Shown in pieces: positions 24,123 to 30,677 of a stretch of 32,252 nucleotides of DNA. The stretch spans positions 1 to 32,252 of the forward strand of contig JAABSP010000059.1 in the NCBI GenBank assembly GCA_011390345.1, read 5' to 3'. The stretch is from Desulfobacteraceae bacterium (GTDB taxonomy: Bacteria > Desulfobacterota > Desulfobacteria > Desulfobacterales > JAABSP01). Position numbers and translations under genes: made by a program. The first letter of the stretch is position 1, and the number at the start of each line of letters is the position of its first letter. Under the pieces are notes generated by a model. The model did no database searches. It was not told the origin of the DNA and was given only the letters and a program-made list of their open reading frames with translations.

Positions 24123-24617
24123 ATGAGTAAGTCCGAAGAGTATCTTAAGGAAGCTTTTGCCGGGGAGTCCCAGGCCAACCGGAAGTATCTCGCGTTTGCC
24201 GAAAAGGCGGATCGTGAAGGATATGCACAGGCCGCCAAGCTCTTCAGAGCCGCCGCCATGGCCGAAACGGTCCATGCCCACGCCCATCTGCGGGCACTCA
24301 AAGGGGTGAATAGCACGGCAGAAAACCTCAAAGAGGCCGTCGGCGGAGAGACCCATGAGTTCAAGGAGATGTATCCGCCCATGATCGAAGCGGCCAAAGC
24401 CGAGGGGAACAAGGCTGCAGAGCGGAGCTTCGACTTTGCCAACCAGGTGGAAAAAGTCCACGCGGATCTCTACCAGAAAGCATTGGACAATCTTGACAAC
24501 ATGGAATCTGTAGACTACTACGTCTGCAATGTCTGCGGATATACCTGCGAAAATGAGGCCCCGGACAACTGCCCTGTCTGCAAGGCCAAAAAGTCGGCAT
24601 TTTCCAAGGTGGATTGA
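24123..24617 (+). CDS. Rubrerythrin
   Basis: This 164-residue protein has a ferritin-like di-iron four-helix domain (about 1-125). Its ligand motifs are GESQANRKY, AAAMAETVHAHAH, GGETHEF and VEKVHADLY. A C-terminal rubredoxin domain carries YVCNVCGY and NCPVCKAKKSAF (cysteines 135, 138, 150 and 153). Rubrerythrins reduce hydrogen peroxide in the cytoplasm of anaerobes using electrons from rubredoxin or NAD(P)H systems. AAGGAG precedes the ATG and a strong terminator follows, so it is monocistronic. Its presence supports an anaerobic host. Confidence 0.96.
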   Translation: MSKSEEYLKEAFAGESQANRKYLAFAEKADREGYAQAAKLFRAAAMAETVHAHAHLRALKGVNSTAENLKEAVGGETHEFKEMYPPMIEAAKAEGNKAAERSFDFANQVEKVHADLYQKALDNLDNMESVDYYVCNVCGYTCENEAPDNCPVCKAKKSAFSKVD

Positions 24618-24686: not shown

Positions 24687-25133
24687 ATGAAAAAGATCCT
24701 CCTTTTGTCCTTGATCCTCCTGATTTCTGCAGTACCCGCGCTCTGCCAGGAGAATGACTACAAGGCCCCAAACGAAGTCAATTACGAAGAGTTTGAAATC
24801 CCGCCCGAACCCCTCTATGAGGAGCCGCTGCAGGACCTTGCAGCAGAAGACGAATACAATTATGGAGGGCAGGAGGATTGGGAAACAGATACCGGCGAGG
24901 TTCAGAAGCTGAGACCGGCAAAGGCTCCCACCAGAGTAAAACCGGCCCGTTCCGCCAATGACGGCGCCGAATCTCAGGATCTGGAGGATGAATATGCCGG
25001 CGAGGAAATATCCGAGTATGACGAGTACGACACGGGAGATGTTTCGGTCTATGGCGACACTGCAGATCCGAACAGCGAGCTGGAGGAGAGCCAGGAGATC
25101 GAGTCGGAAGAATTCTCCCCTGAACAGAATTAG
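24687..25133 (+). CDS. Secreted acidic protein of unknown function
   Basis: This 148-residue protein starts with a clear signal peptide (MKKILLLSLILLISAVPALC, about 1-20). The cysteine at its end is followed by Q and preceded by PAL, so it could be a lipobox-like site, although a plain signal peptidase I cut is equally possible. The mature part is very rich in Glu, Asp and Tyr (YEEFEIPPEPLYEEPL, SEYDEYDTGD) with one short basic patch (RPAKAPTRVKPARS) and is probably disordered. No family is recognised. It precedes the CydA-multihaem gene by 110 bp in the same direction and might be its partner in the periplasm, but only position supports this. Confidence 0.7.
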   Translation: MKKILLLSLILLISAVPALCQENDYKAPNEVNYEEFEIPPEPLYEEPLQDLAAEDEYNYGGQEDWETDTGEVQKLRPAKAPTRVKPARSANDGAESQDLEDEYAGEEISEYDEYDTGDVSVYGDTADPNSELEESQEIESEEFSPEQN

Positions 25134-25243: not shown

Positions 25244-27949
25244 ATGAACGAACAGTGGCTGCTCCATTACCCGGTATGGGATCTCGATATCTTCGGCGGC
25301 GGTTTTCTCATCGCTCTCATTGCAACCATCCATGTCTATATCGCGCACTTTGCCGTGGGCGGCGGGCTTTTCCTCGTACTGACCGAGATCAAGGCCCGCC
25401 GGGAGAATGACCCGGCCGTCCTCGAGTATACCCGGAAGCACAGCGGCTTCTTTCTGCTGCTGACCATGGTCTTCGGCGCGCTGACCGGCGTCGGGATCTG
25501 GTTTATCATCTCCGTGGTCAGCCCTGCAGCCACCTCTGTTCTGATCCACCGCTTTGTCTTCGGCTGGGCCACGGAGTGGACATTCTTCGTTGCCGAGATC
25601 GCGGCACTCTTCGTCTATTACTACTATTTCAATAAAATGGCCCCAAAGCAGCACATCCGGGTGGGGTGGATCTACTTCACATTTGCCTGGCTGTCGCTCT
25701 TTACGGTCGCCGGCATCATCTCCTGGATGCTCACCCCGGGAGAATGGCTGGAAACCAAGAACTTCTGGCACGGCTTCTTCAACCCCAGCTTCTGGCCCTC
25801 GGTCTTCTTCAGAACATTTATCGCGTTCATGTTCGCGGGCCTTTTCGGCTATATCACCGCGCTTTTCTTAAAAGATGAGAAGACCCGGCAGAAGATGGTC
25901 CGGTACTGCTCCTGGTGGCTCATTCTCCCCCTTCCGCTGCTGCTCATGTCCGGGTGGTGGTATTTCATGACTCTGGATGATCCCATCCGGGCCATGATCC
26001 TGGGCCGCTCTCCGGAGATCCTCCCCTATTTCAAGGCATTTTTGTGGATCTCTCCGCTTCTCTTCATCATAGGCGTGATCATGGCCCTGCGCCTGCCGCT
26101 GATGCTCAAAAGGACAATCGCCTTTGCACTGATCTTCATCGGACTTGCCTATATGGGATCTTTTGAGTGGGTCCGGGAGGCGGGACGGCGGCCCTATATC
26201 ATCTACGGATACGCTTATTCCAACGGGGTCTTGGCCGAGGATATGGCGCAGATGAAAGAGCAGGGAATCCTCAAGTCGGCCCGGTGGACAGAATTCGACG
26301 AGGTGGCCAAAGGAGATCAGATCCGGGCCGGAAAGAGGCTTTACAACTTCATGTGCCTCCCCTGCCACTCGGTCGGCGGCATTATCAACGACATCCTGCC
26401 GGCCACGGAGAATTTCGACCTCTTCGGCATGGAGGCCATGCTCGACGGGATGGGCAAGATCAACGACTATATGCCCCCCTTTCCCGGCAATCGGGCCGAG
26501 CAAAAGGCCCTTGCCGCCTACATCGTCACAGGGCTTCACAAAAAACCGGCAGATCCCTCGATCCAGCCCACAGCGCCGCAGCAGCCGGAACCGATCGAGG
26601 TTCCGCCCTTCTTCGATTCCGACGAATACCTGCTGATGGCGTGGAGCACCAAAGGGATGCACATGCTCACGGACGCGGATGCCCGCCTCTCCCTGTCGCC
26701 GCCCGGAAACGACCTCTATGCCCAGCTCATCCGGCGAGGGGAGCTGCCGGAGCATGTGACGGACCGGGTGAAAATCAGCTACACCCTCGAGCCCGGCTTC
26801 CAAGATCCAGCGGCAAAGGTCGATTTCTGGAAATGGTCCGAACCGCTCACCGGCAAAGAAGTCCAAAAAAATACCGGCCTTTTCGGCAATCAGACCCAAG
26901 GGGAGATGACCTTTGACAATGACCGGTTTGCGTTCCGGGCAAAGGGGATTCCCGCAGTCCCCTACCCTTCCGGCAGCACCGGTAAAAATCTCTTCATCCC
27001 CTACCCAATCGCCACGGTCACGGCAACGGATGCGGAGACGGGCGAGGTTCTCGCGGTCACGAAGACCACCGCTCCGGTATCAACGGAGATGGGCTGCAAA
27101 AGCTGCCACGGCGGAAATTGGCGTGTGGCCGATATCGCGGGTATTTCACAGAAGACCGCAGATGATATCCTCGCGGTCCACGACCGGATGAACGGCACCG
27201 ACCTTTCGGCAAAGGCAGAAAACAACGAGCCGAGAACCTGCCAGCACTGCCACCGGGATGAAAATCTGGAAGAGCGAATGGGAGAGATCGCAGCAGAGGG
27301 AGAAATGGAGCTGCCGATGAACCTGTCGGCCGCGATCCACGGATTTCACGCCAACTACCTCACCGGAAGAGGGGACGATGCCTGCGGCGCCTGCCATCCC
27401 GGATCGCCCGAGACCTATACCGCAGGTTTCCGGGGCATCCACAGGGAGCTGTTCATGGGCTGCACCAACTGCCACGGCGCGATGGAGGATCACGCGCTGA
27501 GCCTTCTTCTGGCGGAAAAGAGTGCCGGAAAGAAGGGCGCGAAAAAGTTGATGGCGCACCTCTCCCCCAGAGGAGCCGATTCAACGGACCGCATCAAGCC
27601 CCGAAAGCCCTGGATCAACGAGCCGGACTGCCTCCACTGCCACGTCGATTTCGCTCCGCCCGAGACCGACATGGCCCCGCTGGATCAGCGAACCGCATCG
27701 ATGGATGACCTATTCCGGTTTCGAACCGATGCGGCCGGAATCATGTGTGCCGGATGCCACGGCAGCCCTCATGCAATCTATCCGGCCTCCAATCAGTTCG
27801 GCGGGGACAGCTTAGGACCCATCCAGTACCAGAAGAATCCCTATCCTATCGGAGCCAACCGGAATTGCCGGGTCTGCCATACCGTGGACATGGAGGAGGA
27901 GATTCATCACCCCAACTCTCTGACCGATTTCCGGAATGTGGTGCAGTAA
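25244..27949 (+). CDS. CydA-like (cytochrome bd-type) membrane module fused to an octahaem cytochrome c
   Basis: This 901-residue protein has two halves. Residues about 15-320 hold some eight to nine membrane helices resembling cytochrome bd subunit I: N-terminal H30 and H35 in IHVYIAHFAVGGG, ATEWTFFVAE near 109-118, and EAGRRPYIIYGY at 312-323, the counterpart of the ExGRQPW signature. Residues 350-901 are periplasmic with eight CXXCH sites, at 371, 618, 666, 714, 740, 796, 835 and 875. The first sits in a class I cytochrome c domain with a likely Met ligand in DYMPPFPG. No CydB gene is adjacent. A likely role is moving electrons between membrane quinol and periplasmic carriers, not reducing oxygen. 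Homologous CydA-haem c fusions are known in the bd superfamily, but this haem count looks unusual. Confidence 0.88.
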   Translation: MNEQWLLHYPVWDLDIFGGGFLIALIATIHVYIAHFAVGGGLFLVLTEIKARRENDPAVLEYTRKHSGFFLLLTMVFGALTGVGIWFIISVVSPAATSVLIHRFVFGWATEWTFFVAEIAALFVYYYYFNKMAPKQHIRVGWIYFTFAWLSLFTVAGIISWMLTPGEWLETKNFWHGFFNPSFWPSVFFRTFIAFMFAGLFGYITALFLKDEKTRQKMVRYCSWWLILPLPLLLMSGWWYFMTLDDPIRAMILGRSPEILPYFKAFLWISPLLFIIGVIMALRLPLMLKRTIAFALIFIGLAYMGSFEWVREAGRRPYIIYGYAYSNGVLAEDMAQMKEQGILKSARWTEFDEVAKGDQIRAGKRLYNFMCLPCHSVGGIINDILPATENFDLFGMEAMLDGMGKINDYMPPFPGNRAEQKALAAYIVTGLHKKPADPSIQPTAPQQPEPIEVPPFFDSDEYLLMAWSTKGMHMLTDADARLSLSPPGNDLYAQLIRRGELPEHVTDRVKISYTLEPGFQDPAAKVDFWKWSEPLTGKEVQKNTGLFGNQTQGEMTFDNDRFAFRAKGIPAVPYPSGSTGKNLFIPYPIATVTATDAETGEVLAVTKTTAPVSTEMGCKSCHGGNWRVADIAGISQKTADDILAVHDRMNGTDLSAKAENNEPRTCQHCHRDENLEERMGEIAAEGEMELPMNLSAAIHGFHANYLTGRGDDACGACHPGSPETYTAGFRGIHRELFMGCTNCHGAMEDHALSLLLAEKSAGKKGAKKLMAHLSPRGADSTDRIKPRKPWINEPDCLHCHVDFAPPETDMAPLDQRTASMDDLFRFRTDAAGIMCAGCHGSPHAIYPASNQFGGDSLGPIQYQKNPYPIGANRNCRVCHTVDMEEEIHHPNSLTDFRNVVQ

Positions 27950-27985: not shown

Positions 27986-28013
27986 ATCTGAAAGACTATA
28001 TCTGAAAGACTAG
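27986..28013. repeat. 14-bp tandem duplication at the protease stop codon
   Basis: ATCTGAAAGACTAT is followed directly by ATCTGAAAGACTAG. The second copy supplies the TAG stop (minus strand, 28012-28010) of the trypsin-like gene. Confidence 0.75.
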
Positions 28014-29185
28014 GGCTTTCGAACCCCGGAGATCGTCTGCAGAATCCCGACCGCATCTCCGGCATCGATCTTTCCGTTTCGGGTGAAATCCCCGGCCGGC
28101 GGAATGTTCATTTGGCTGCTCAGATCGATCTGATCGCCGGAGCGGAAAAGGCTGATCTGTTTTGTAACCGTTATCAGCCCCGGAGCTTCGATCCGAATCG
28201 TATAGCTGCCCGGCGGAACATCCAGGGAAAAATTGCCGGCCGCATCGCTATAAGTCGTATCTCCGGTTTCCTGAACCGTAATCCTCGCATTGGCCACTCC
28301 CAAGCCCTCATGTCCGGCGAAGGCTGTGGTCAACTGTCCCCACAGGGCATCTTCTTTCATCAAAGAGGATTTGATGAAATCGACAAAATGGCCTGCCCGG
28401 GTATAGACGCCATAGAGATCAGGCAATGCACACCCCTCTCCCCAACTGACCATCCCGGCCAGTTTCCAGGAATCGCCTTCCCACAGAATCAGCGGCCCTC
28501 CGCTGTCTCCCACACAGGCATCCTTTCCGCCCTCGGGATATCCTGCGCAGACCATGGAATCGAAAATGGGATCATGGTAATAGAAGCTGTTATAGGTGTT
28601 GAAGGCTTCGTTGCAGGTCTCATTTGACACAACGGGCAGGGAGAGCTGTTGAAGCGTACTCGGATAGCTGTCCCGATCCGGATCGGTACTTCCCCAGCCC
28701 ATGGTGATGCCCGTCCTTCCGCTCAGAACCGCATCCGGAGAGATCAGGGGAAGAATTTGGGTGGAAACATCGGATTCCAGCTCCAGCAGCGCAATATCGG
28801 CATTGAGGGTATCAGGATCGTAATCCGGATGCATCATGACCTTTTTGACGCGGATCCGCTCTCCCGCATCGTTTTGAAGATCATGCACCCCGACCACCAC
28901 ATCGATGTCGCCAGCGGTTCTGTTCTCCGCACAATGTCCGGCCGTCACCACCCAGCCGGAATTGATCAGCGATCCGCCGCAGTAGTGGCCATAATAGATA
29001 TCCGACTGGCTGGCCCGGACCAGGGAGACCATCCAGGGCCATGCACCGGGCTCGGCCTCTGTACCCCCGATGATTCTCGGGCTGATTTGCGCGGATACCA
29101 CCGATACCGCACCGGGAATGATCAATAGAAGTAACAATCCGCAAAGGATTGACCATATAAGCATCTGTTTACAAATTGATTTCAT
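28010..29185 (-). CDS. Secreted trypsin-like serine protease with a beta-sandwich and a dockerin-like C-terminus
   Basis: The ATG at 29185 has AAGGAG upstream and gives 391 residues. A signal peptide covers about 1-33. A short propeptide ends in SPR, followed by the mature S1 start IIGG at 38. The triad is H84 (TAGHC), D130 (NADIALLEL) and S228 (GDSGGP). D222 in KDACVGDSGGP occupies the S1-pocket position of trypsin, predicting cleavage after Arg or Lys. Residues about 295-345 resemble a carboxypeptidase-regulatory-like beta-sandwich (YSDAAGNFSLDVPPGSYTI). The tail GDFTRNGKIDAGDAVGIL is a calcium-loop, dockerin-like half repeat. S1 trypsins are uncommon in anaerobic bacteria but recur in Desulfobacterota and Vibrio-like genomes. 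Confidence 0.9.
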   Translation of the reverse strand: MKSICKQMLIWSILCGLLLLLIIPGAVSVVSAQISPRIIGGTEAEPGAWPWMVSLVRASQSDIYYGHYCGGSLINSGWVVTAGHCAENRTAGDIDVVVGVHDLQNDAGERIRVKKVMMHPDYDPDTLNADIALLELESDVSTQILPLISPDAVLSGRTGITMGWGSTDPDRDSYPSTLQQLSLPVVSNETCNEAFNTYNSFYYHDPIFDSMVCAGYPEGGKDACVGDSGGPLILWEGDSWKLAGMVSWGEGCALPDLYGVYTRAGHFVDFIKSSLMKEDALWGQLTTAFAGHEGLGVANARITVQETGDTTYSDAAGNFSLDVPPGSYTIRIEAPGLITVTKQISLFRSGDQIDLSSQMNIPPAGDFTRNGKIDAGDAVGILQTISGVRKP

Positions 29186-29624
29186 GCGGTAACTCCTTGA
29201 TTGATTCAAAATCCTTCTCATCGAAACAGGCTTTTGGAGATTTCCTTTTTTCGATGGCGTTACTTTACATATACACGATTCTTCCGAAAAGAGACAGAAA
29301 TAGAGGAAGTATAATCATTCCTTCGACCTTTTGCCGCCGGTTTTTTAAAAACAGATATCGCCTGGCATCTCATATTGTGCCGTCACTCTCCTCTCTCAAG
29401 AGATTGGCGCCCTGAGCCTGGAGTTGTCCCGTCCTTAGAGAAGATCATTTGAAAGGGCTTGAGCCGATATCGAAAATGGGTTACAAGATTACAAGAAGAA
29501 GGATCTGTAAAAATCGGATGCGGGGACGAAAGAAGTCTTTCACTGTTGGAGCGGGAGGCCCGGAGGCAGAGGTATTCAGAGCCAAGGCAGCGAGGCATTT
29601 GAAGAAGATGGGGGTGAATTTGGG
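29186..29624. other. Intergenic region without a recognised gene
   Basis: No supported gene lies here. It contains GGAGATTTCCTTTTTTCGAT at 29236-29255, nearly identical to a sequence upstream of the ADP-ribosylglycohydrolase gene. A perfect TATAAT occurs at 29310-29315 on the plus strand without a good -35 box. The part from about 29540 to 29620 is purine-rich (GGCCCGGAGGCAGAGG-like) and resembles decayed repeat DNA; no intact frame is present. Confidence 0.5.
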
Positions 29625-30677
29625 ATGAATGAAAAAACCGAAAAGCTGCCCGATGATTATCCGGAATGGCTGAAACAGTTGAAGAGCCACATCAGTTCAG
29701 CAAAGACCAGATCCATCCGTTCTTTGAATCAGGATTTGATCCGTCTGTATTATCGGATCGGCGCGGAGATTCTGGATCGCAGGCGTCGGCAGGACTGGGG
29801 AACGAACGTCATCGGGCGTCTGGCGTCCGATCTGCGGGAAGCCTTTCCCGAAATGAGGGGGTTTTCCACGACCAATCTCAAATATATGCGCTCTTTTGCC
29901 GAGAATTGTCCCCATATGAAAATAGGTCAGCAGCCTGCTGACCAATTGCCCTGGTTCCACATTATCTGTCTGCTGACAAGGGTATCGGACCCGGTTGCAC
30001 GGGAGTGGTATGCGACTCGGGCGATCGAGGAGGGCTGGTCCCGGAGTACTCTGGAAGTTCAGATCAGGAATCAGCTTTATCTGCGACAGGGCGGAGCCGT
30101 CACGAACTTTGCCCGGCGGCTGCCGGAGCCGAACGGCCAACTGGCGCATCAGGCTTTGAAAGATCCCTATATTTTCGATTTTCTCGGCCTTGGCGATGAG
30201 GCGATGGAGCGGGAGATCGAGAATGCTCTGATCCGGCACATCACCCATTTTCTGCTGGAACTGGGGGCAGGGTTTGCATTCTTGGGGAGGCAGTACCGGC
30301 TGGAAGTTGGGGGTGATGAATTCTTTATCGACCTGCTCTTCTATCATACCCGGCTGAAGCGGTATGTGGTGATCGAACTCAAGGCAACGGCCTTCAAGCC
30401 GGAGCATGCGGGGCAGCTCAACTTTTACCTTTCCGCGGTGGATGCGCAGGTCAAAGCGCCCGATGATCAGCCGACCATCGGCCTGCTGCTGTGCAAGACC
30501 CGGAATCGGATTGTTGCCGAATATGCCCTTTCCGGTATCGACAAGCCCATCGGGGTGGCGGAATATCAACTGGTTCGATCTCTGCCGGAGCATTTGGATA
30601 CCAATCTGCCGAGCATCGAGGAACTGGAGAACGAGCTTTCTGCGAATCTGCCGGAGGGGGAGGATGAAGATGAGTAG
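29625..30677 (+). CDS. YhcG-family PD-(D/E)XK nuclease (DUF1016)
   Basis: This 350-residue protein has the two-domain layout of the YhcG family. The N-terminal DUF1016 domain (about 12-150) contains LYYRIGAEIL and GFSTTNLKYMRSF. A C-terminal PD-(D/E)XK nuclease domain (about 170-320) has catalytic residues D236 (FFIDLLFYH), E251 and K253 (VIELK), with QLNFYLSAVD following. The nuclease appears intact. The family is widespread, often lies near restriction or toxin-antitoxin genes and moves horizontally; its cellular role is poorly defined. Here it stands alone before a truncated antitoxin, in a stretch with no metabolic link to its neighbours, which hints at acquisition. The C-terminus is acidic (PEGEDEDE). 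Confidence 0.92.
   Translation: MNEKTEKLPDDYPEWLKQLKSHISSAKTRSIRSLNQDLIRLYYRIGAEILDRRRRQDWGTNVIGRLASDLREAFPEMRGFSTTNLKYMRSFAENCPHMKIGQQPADQLPWFHIICLLTRVSDPVAREWYATRAIEEGWSRSTLEVQIRNQLYLRQGGAVTNFARRLPEPNGQLAHQALKDPYIFDFLGLGDEAMEREIENALIRHITHFLLELGAGFAFLGRQYRLEVGGDEFFIDLLFYHTRLKRYVVIELKATAFKPEHAGQLNFYLSAVDAQVKAPDDQPTIGLLLCKTRNRIVAEYALSGIDKPIGVAEYQLVRSLPEHLDTNLPSIEELENELSANLPEGEDEDE

Follow-up and report, generated by a model that had tools for sequence, protein, structure and literature searches.

The window considered here is the whole 32,252-nucleotide stretch of contig JAABSP010000059.1 from a Desulfobacteraceae genome (assembly GCA_011390345.1). On its forward strand, an open reading frame starting with ATG (25244..27949) encodes 901 amino acids plus a stop codon and combines a CydA-like membrane part with eight CXXCH motifs, as an earlier note on this DNA had claimed and as the length of the frame, the Pfam matches, the motif count and sequence shuffling confirm. 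The forward-strand gene can be divided into four parts. The membrane module (residues 1-315, 25244..26188) has about eight helices in the predicted model and matches the Pfam family Cyt_bd_oxida_I over residues 23-239 (E 5.8e-11). A mono-haem cytochrome c domain (residues 355-431, 26306..26536) carrying CLPCH at 371-375 was assigned from Pfam, the alignment and weak fold rows: it matches Cytochrome_CBB3 over residues 359-427 with 24.8 bits, below the cut-off of 27, and resembles the c domain of cd1 nitrite reductase at a Z of about 5.5. The secondary structure of the predicted model delimits a beta-rich stretch (residues 456-612, 26609..27079), and the remaining seven CXXCH motifs fall in a seven-haem part (residues 613-889, 27080..27910) that is MtrC/MtrF-II/IV- and c7-like, with Pfam matches to MtrC/MtrF domain II/IV (PF22113; residues 711-886, 46.6 bits against a cut-off of 30) and Cytochrome_C7 (residues 794-880). 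Against the OmcA/MtrC model TIGR03507 (NCBIfam) the protein reached 25.8 bits and missed the family cut-off of 209.3; only the domain model PF22113 passes. The motifs, from which the haem content is predicted, lie at residues 371, 618, 666, 714, 740, 796, 835 and 875; in 2000 shuffles of residues 331-901 the CXXCH count never rose above one (mean 0.0145). Sequence searches of the PDB with each half gave no useful match.

The neighbours are as the earlier note described them, an acidic, secreted-looking ORF of 148 amino acids upstream (24687..25133, forward strand) and a convergent gene downstream (28010-29221, reverse strand) for a secreted trypsin-family protease with a CarboxypepD_reg domain, whose C-terminal stretch we take to read like a dockerin repeat. 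The acidic ORF has no relative among the fetched loci besides itself and probably stands outside the fusion system. Further downstream lies a YhcG-type PDDEXK nuclease gene (DUF1016; 29625-30677, forward strand). A rubrerythrin gene assigned by Pfam (24123..24617, forward strand), which the earlier note does not mention, adds a context of oxygen and peroxide defence; it is the best rubrerythrin match of the genome, and a rubrerythrin gene adjoins the fusion also in all three same-family genomes searched (G001, G002 and G003; loci L019, L029 and L005).

Matches to the fusion at E 1e-10 or better were found in 40 of 146 genomes, its own included, and 526 of 551 pattern-bearing stretches in a contig collection code for relatives; the best 80 of these 526, which overlap the genome-set loci (e.g., L034 and G116), are referred to below as the named loci. 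The eight haem motifs are complete in 27 of 30 genome-set loci (L004-L033; L019, L031 and L032 end at contig edges) and in 78 of the 80 named loci (L056 and L090 are truncated at contig ends), and the single-contig genomes G013, G116 and G118 also carry the fusion as one eight-haem frame. This recurrence rules out an assembly join of two genes, a possibility that the earlier note had raised and of which no sign was found across loci. The named carriers are mostly anaerobes and include Desulfonema magnum, three Desulfogranum species, Malonomonas rubra and many metagenome-assembled genomes named as Desulfobacterota groups; a few bear the names Bacteroidales, Spirochaetes, Krumholzibacteriia, Gemmatimonadales, Myxococcales and CSSED10-310. 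Among the 27 full-length rows M410 of the c domain is invariant and is likely, judging from the alignment, the axial methionine of the mono-haem domain. H646, H699, H702, H733 and H843 of the seven-haem part are invariant in the same rows, and H888/H889 are conserved except in one cut row (L011); these seven further histidines together with M410 would provide one candidate distal ligand per haem. Standalone nonahaem proteins of about 570 amino acids (L149-L151) match within fusion residues 455-891 at 31% identity, and an 857-amino-acid nine-haem protein with DUF4214 and TSP3 (L148) is also related to the seven-haem part. The standalone proteins (L148-L151) are a possible source of the haem part of the fusion.

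Using an alignment of 39 true CydA, 44 long forms of the fusion type and 25 short forms, we compared the membrane core with that of bd oxidases; E. coli residue numbers were assigned by aligning the CydA of this genome with 6rko. We take H19, E99 and E445 to serve the two high-spin haems, H186 and M393 haem b558, and K252 and E257 the Q-loop. The H19, E99, E445 and R448 positions are kept in all long and all short forms, while that of E107 is kept in all 44 long and 23 of 25 short forms, with leucine in the other two. Their equivalents in the fusion are H30, E111, E312, R315 and E118, respectively; H35, considered as the H19 equivalent, was rejected, as the alignments place H30 there. The earlier note had reported an altered ExGRQPW motif, and the change is real, but the glutamate and arginine of the motif are retained as E312 and R315. 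The b558 histidine position, H186, is occupied by phenylalanine in 44 of 44 long forms (F189 in the fusion, next to R190, whose arginine is invariant across the long forms). The M393 column, which lies in a region where our two alignments differ, holds methionine in one of 44 long forms in the first alignment, where the fusion has W268, and in three of 44 in the second. The Q-loop columns K252 and E257 are empty in every long and short form and filled in 39 of 39 CydA, and all tested positions are present in 38-39 of the 39 true CydA rows. As for the haem b ligands, which the earlier note had suggested checking, the high-spin positions are kept in the long forms, whereas of those of b558 H186 is replaced and M393 is not conserved. 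Given the replaced b558 histidine, the unconserved methionine position and the missing Q-loop, the description of this part as a quinol module is unsupported. The invariance of the high-spin site residues alongside the loss of these features points instead to an O2 site that receives its electrons from the c haems.

The AlphaFold model of the fusion (pLDDT 80.6, pTM 0.78, 27 sequences) gave CydA chains as its best Foldseek matches (E 1.8e-7), and its membrane part superposed on CydA chains in VIA-align with Z 27.6-29.8 and rmsd 2.8-3.2 over 307-318 residues. Membrane subunits of alternative complex III and polysulfide reductase match the fold of both the fusion model and the model of the partner described below, at Z 15.8-18.3, well below the bd rows. 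From alignment and model together, the membrane part would be a bd core that lacks the quinol site. CydA has one helix more than the approximately eight of the fusion model, and the c-haem tail stands in place of its last helix. The CydA N-terminus is periplasmic; if the same is taken for the fusion, the c domain would exit on the periplasmic side, a direction toward which the loop charges lean weakly.

No cydB lies beside the fusion in the window, and the single cydB match in the genome adjoins its sole full-length cydA match, on contig C184, where an ordinary cydAB is present. The earlier note was right that CydB is missing next to the fusion, and its check for a cydB elsewhere in the genome finds one beside the true cydA; its emphasis on the absence was nevertheless misleading, since a dedicated partner with a CydA fold, encoded on a contig outside the stretch that the note covered, had been overlooked. 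This partner (A3-type) is a membrane protein of about 355 amino acids encoded upstream on the same strand in 65 of the 80 named loci, mostly at 0-300 bp or overlapping. Seven of the other 15 lack upstream sequence, and eight (L034, L036, L037, L039, L046, L048, L049 and L056), all within the 23 best matches to the query, show no partner within 1.7-6 kb upstream. None of 17 partner sequences matched Pfam better than E 0.065, which means that a Pfam-based annotation overlooks the second subunit. By profile comparison (hhalign) the partner is related to the N-terminal part of the fusion (96.6%, E 5.7e-10); hhalign against the genome's own CydA and CydB came back empty, and membership of either family by sequence was rejected. 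In the alignment with the fusion the partner keeps H31 (H19 position) and H188 (H186 position) and has lost the E99 and E107 positions. Its model (pLDDT 84.6) displays a CydA-type fold (VIA-align, Z 24.8-28.4), with subunit I as the best chain in all ten bd entries listed, and in Foldseek subunit II chains score about as high as subunit I.

The window's genome encodes the partner at C126:78004-79059 (E 1e-146). Across the 146 genomes, 31 of the 32 that carry the octahaem fusion have it, as do 3 of the 114 that do not (Fisher p 4e-27, relatedness ignored). This count leaves out eight of the 40 matching genomes: seven (G052, G056, G088, G100, G126, G127 and G134) with either a haem-part-only match or a short relative of 24-25% identity, and G058, whose two-haem 521-amino-acid form is not octahaem and has the partner adjacent (with G058 counted in, 32 of 33). 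Genomes cut at contig ends were retained (G001, G022, where most of the CydA part is missing, G029 and G079). The three genomes that have the partner but not the octahaem fusion are G058, G021 and G009, the match in G009 being a 52-position fragment with a stop. Fusion and partner are adjacent in 17 of 31 genomes and apart in 14, the window's genome included, where both contigs extend tens of kb upstream of the two genes. Separation is certain from a single contig in three of the 14 (G013, G116 and G118); for the other non-adjacent genomes, different contigs only suggest it. The two proteins would bind each other as subunits of one complex.

Genes for oxygen metabolism are found around the family as well. 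Among the 80 named loci, flavodiiron genes lie near seven, cydA/cydB near six and rubrerythrin near three, with any of these in 13 and none of the O2 genes searched in 67. Gene density predicts about 0.2, 0.2 and 0.6 loci, respectively, an expectation based on one genome with one flavodiiron, one cydAB and four rubrerythrin copies (Pfam matches in the window's genome number two for flavodiiron and six for rubrerythrin). The flanks are unequal in length and the loci related; as the neighbour genes come from related genomes, the counts are not independent. In the window's genome, the better of the two flavodiiron matches stops roughly 2 kb short of the partner gene. A gene for a HEAT-repeat protein (L144:7161-8003 and relatives) often precedes the partner gene near a flavodiiron gene: the two occur together in six of the 80 named loci, and 30 partner loci with 1.5 kb flanks hold the HEAT-repeat gene in 15 and the flavodiiron gene in nine. 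The HEAT-repeat gene is also found next to true cydA in several loci (L186, L187, L188 and L191).

With the membrane part as query, matches were found in 38 of 198 genomes of the phylum. They include the short forms of about 450 amino acids, a CydA-like part with one c haem, and the A3-type partner is adjacent in 20 of 22 short-form loci (L158, L165-L185; 22 of the 30 loci fetched). In a tree built with a quick method, with long branches and an unsure deep order, true CydA occupies one side of a branch with support 99, apart from the fusion and its relatives; the tree omits two of 44 long rows, 20 of 39 CydA rows, L216 and L222. The separate branch that the earlier note expected is borne out by the tree placement it had proposed as a check. 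A true bd oxidase working with CydB, the outcome that it had set against its own reading, was rejected from this placement, the lost quinol and b558 features and the lack of an adjacent cydB. The long forms, which span rows named as several phyla, need two changes on this tree, and a single origin is allowed. One short protein, L158:1501-2793 (431 amino acids, one haem), has a membrane part close to the long forms and apparently lost the seven-haem tail. Other arrangements exist among the relatives: an operon in L223, L224 and L265 encodes a di-haem cytochrome c, a CydA-like protein with one haem and a CydA-fold partner carrying two c haems, and in L215, L217-L221 and L226 a CydA-like protein of 613-728 amino acids with no c haem in its chain is followed by separate genes for two-haem and often one-haem cytochromes.

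Considering the O2-reducing bd core, the eight c haems and the partner that is not CydB, electrons for O2 removal probably come from periplasmic cytochromes rather than quinol. We propose, with a probability of roughly 0.6, an O2 reductase of the bd superfamily that takes its electrons from cytochrome c and consists of two subunits, the fusion being the catalytic one; it would be akin to the families that Murali et al. in 2021 reportedly labelled OR-C. Electrons from a periplasmic multihaem pool would be taken up by the seven-haem part and handed to the mono-haem c domain, which emerges at the periplasmic face from the last membrane helix; from there they would reach paired high-spin haems around H30, E111 and E312, where O2 would be reduced to water with protons delivered via E118. 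The CydA-fold paralog (here C126:78004-79059) would replace CydB as second subunit. The electron direction, O2 as substrate and the proton path are deductions from the features described above. Such an enzyme could serve O2 removal or microaerobic respiration in anaerobes alongside ordinary cydAB, although the presence of ordinary cydAB in the genome also counts against it, as do the mostly anaerobic life of the named carriers, the separation of fusion and partner in 14 of 31 genomes and the ability of a bd-type site to bind NO too.

The opposite electron direction, from the membrane out into the haem chain, would make the fusion a menaquinol:cytochrome c oxidoreductase feeding extracellular electron transfer. 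A haem chain on a membrane module does resemble the inner-membrane quinol dehydrogenases of extracellular electron transfer, the haem part is MtrC/MtrF-like by Pfam, and the partner, through its H31 and H188, might bind haem b and quinol. The fusion itself has neither Q-loop nor b558 histidine, however, its O2-type site residues are invariant, and conduit families are absent from the 25 most frequent of 147 families (128 neighbour proteins, 43 loci). We consider this direction unlikely, and the quinol:cytochrome c or extracellular electron-transfer entry point that the earlier note had favoured is unsupported by the same observations.

A cytochrome c-fed enzyme could instead reduce NO or another small oxidant. 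An NnrU-like gene lies near 16 of the 80 named loci (one of these genes matches Pfam NnrU at E 3.4e-7), and flavodiiron proteins can be NO reductases. All 16 loci are nested within 19 that share an amidotransferase gene, and 12 of the 16 bear Desulfobulbaceae-type names, so that the association may be one lineage's gene order; moreover, the site carries the residues of O2-reducing CydA. We hold an oxidant other than O2 to be quite improbable. Least probable, and in our view very unlikely, is a non-catalytic electron wire or redox sensor with a relic CydA fold as membrane anchor. The loss of E107 in two of 25 short forms and in all eight members of a partner-less group (see below) would fit such a role, but the invariance of H19, E99, E107, E445 and R448 in all 44 long forms, with rows named as several phyla among them, is hard to explain without catalysis.

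A cytochrome-c-fed O2 reductase would extend a class that has been predicted before. As described in excerpts of two reviews, Murali et al. (2021) distinguished three bd families, of which one has a quinol site and the rest are fed by cytochrome c or, possibly, a different donor, and every biochemically characterised bd enzyme is a quinol oxidase, the cytochrome-c-linked ones being only predicted (PMC8509429, PMC9266656). With CydAB, the quinol:O2 oxidoreductases such as E. coli bd-I and Geobacillus bd, the fusion shares the subunit I fold, the high-spin haem residues and the E107 position; it differs in the absent Q-loop and b558 histidine and in a partner that is a CydA-fold paralog with no Pfam match instead of a CydB-family protein. 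It has in common with the cytochrome-c-linked families, as far as the review descriptions go, two active-site haems, no quinol site and a c-type donor, a function that its own c haems would fulfil; what sets it apart from them, again on those descriptions, is eight haems in one chain. The bd-like TO complexes of Ca. Manganitrophaceae (PMC9040806), compared here by their description in part of that paper, are likewise non-canonical, bd-like and read as terminal oxidases with other donors, and are made of separate subunits. OmcA/MtrC-type cytochromes and the nonahaem proteins of about 570 amino acids are related to the seven-haem part, but only in the fusion is it joined to a bd core. No octahaem CydA fusion was found in the literature searched, which was covered in part and did not extend to the original 2021 family survey; since the reviews already propose cytochrome-c-linked families, it is the octahaem version and its CydA-like partner that are new as far as seen.

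The partner-less relatives may bear on cable bacteria. Within the family of genome G231 (73 genomes), genera g251 and g252 have CydB in 0 of 13 genomes and a diverged relative of the membrane part in 13 of 13; the A3-type partner is absent in all 13. A few other genomes of that family are also without CydB, e.g., g243, which lacks the relative too. Eight fetched loci (L257-L264, from G384, G387, G388, G390, G391, G394, G395 and G396) encode CydA-like proteins of 407-421 amino acids with one c haem, or 560 amino acids and two haems in L264; H186 is kept and E107 is lost in 8 of 8. Genera g251 and g252 would be cable bacteria. Passages of published genome studies report a CydA homolog only, with no complete bd oxidase (PMC10030654, PMC12093952), bd genes absent in Ca. 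Electrothrix and Ca. Electronema (PMC6976610) and one species with CydBSA (PMC11247825). In those accounts (PMC10030654, PMC11247825, PMC12093952) the orphan homolog is, like the fusion, CydA-like and without CydB; the candidate protein found here differs from the fusion in its single c haem (two in one of eight), the missing A3-type partner, the retained H186 and the lost E107. The orphan CydA described in cable bacteria may be this cousin, which has one haem and lacks the partner.

The octahaem fusion family is widespread and little noticed in sulfate-reducing bacteria. The fusion and its partner offer a clear two-gene target in the cultured Desulfonema magnum, Desulfogranum species and Malonomonas rubra for a first test of a cytochrome-c-linked bd enzyme, and, if the proposed function is true, they would account for the removal of O2 by anaerobes at the expense of their periplasmic cytochromes' electrons. 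More tentatively, and we hold this broader view to be possible but doubtful, a quinol-free bd branch, built of a CydA core with c haems and a CydA-like second subunit or none, would wire the periplasmic multihaem pool of sulfate reducers to an O2 site, and its simplest, partner-less form would be the oxygen reductase that cable bacteria have seemed to lack; their orphan CydA has hitherto been read as an incomplete quinol oxidase. If true, it would provide a candidate explanation of O2 reduction in cable bacteria.
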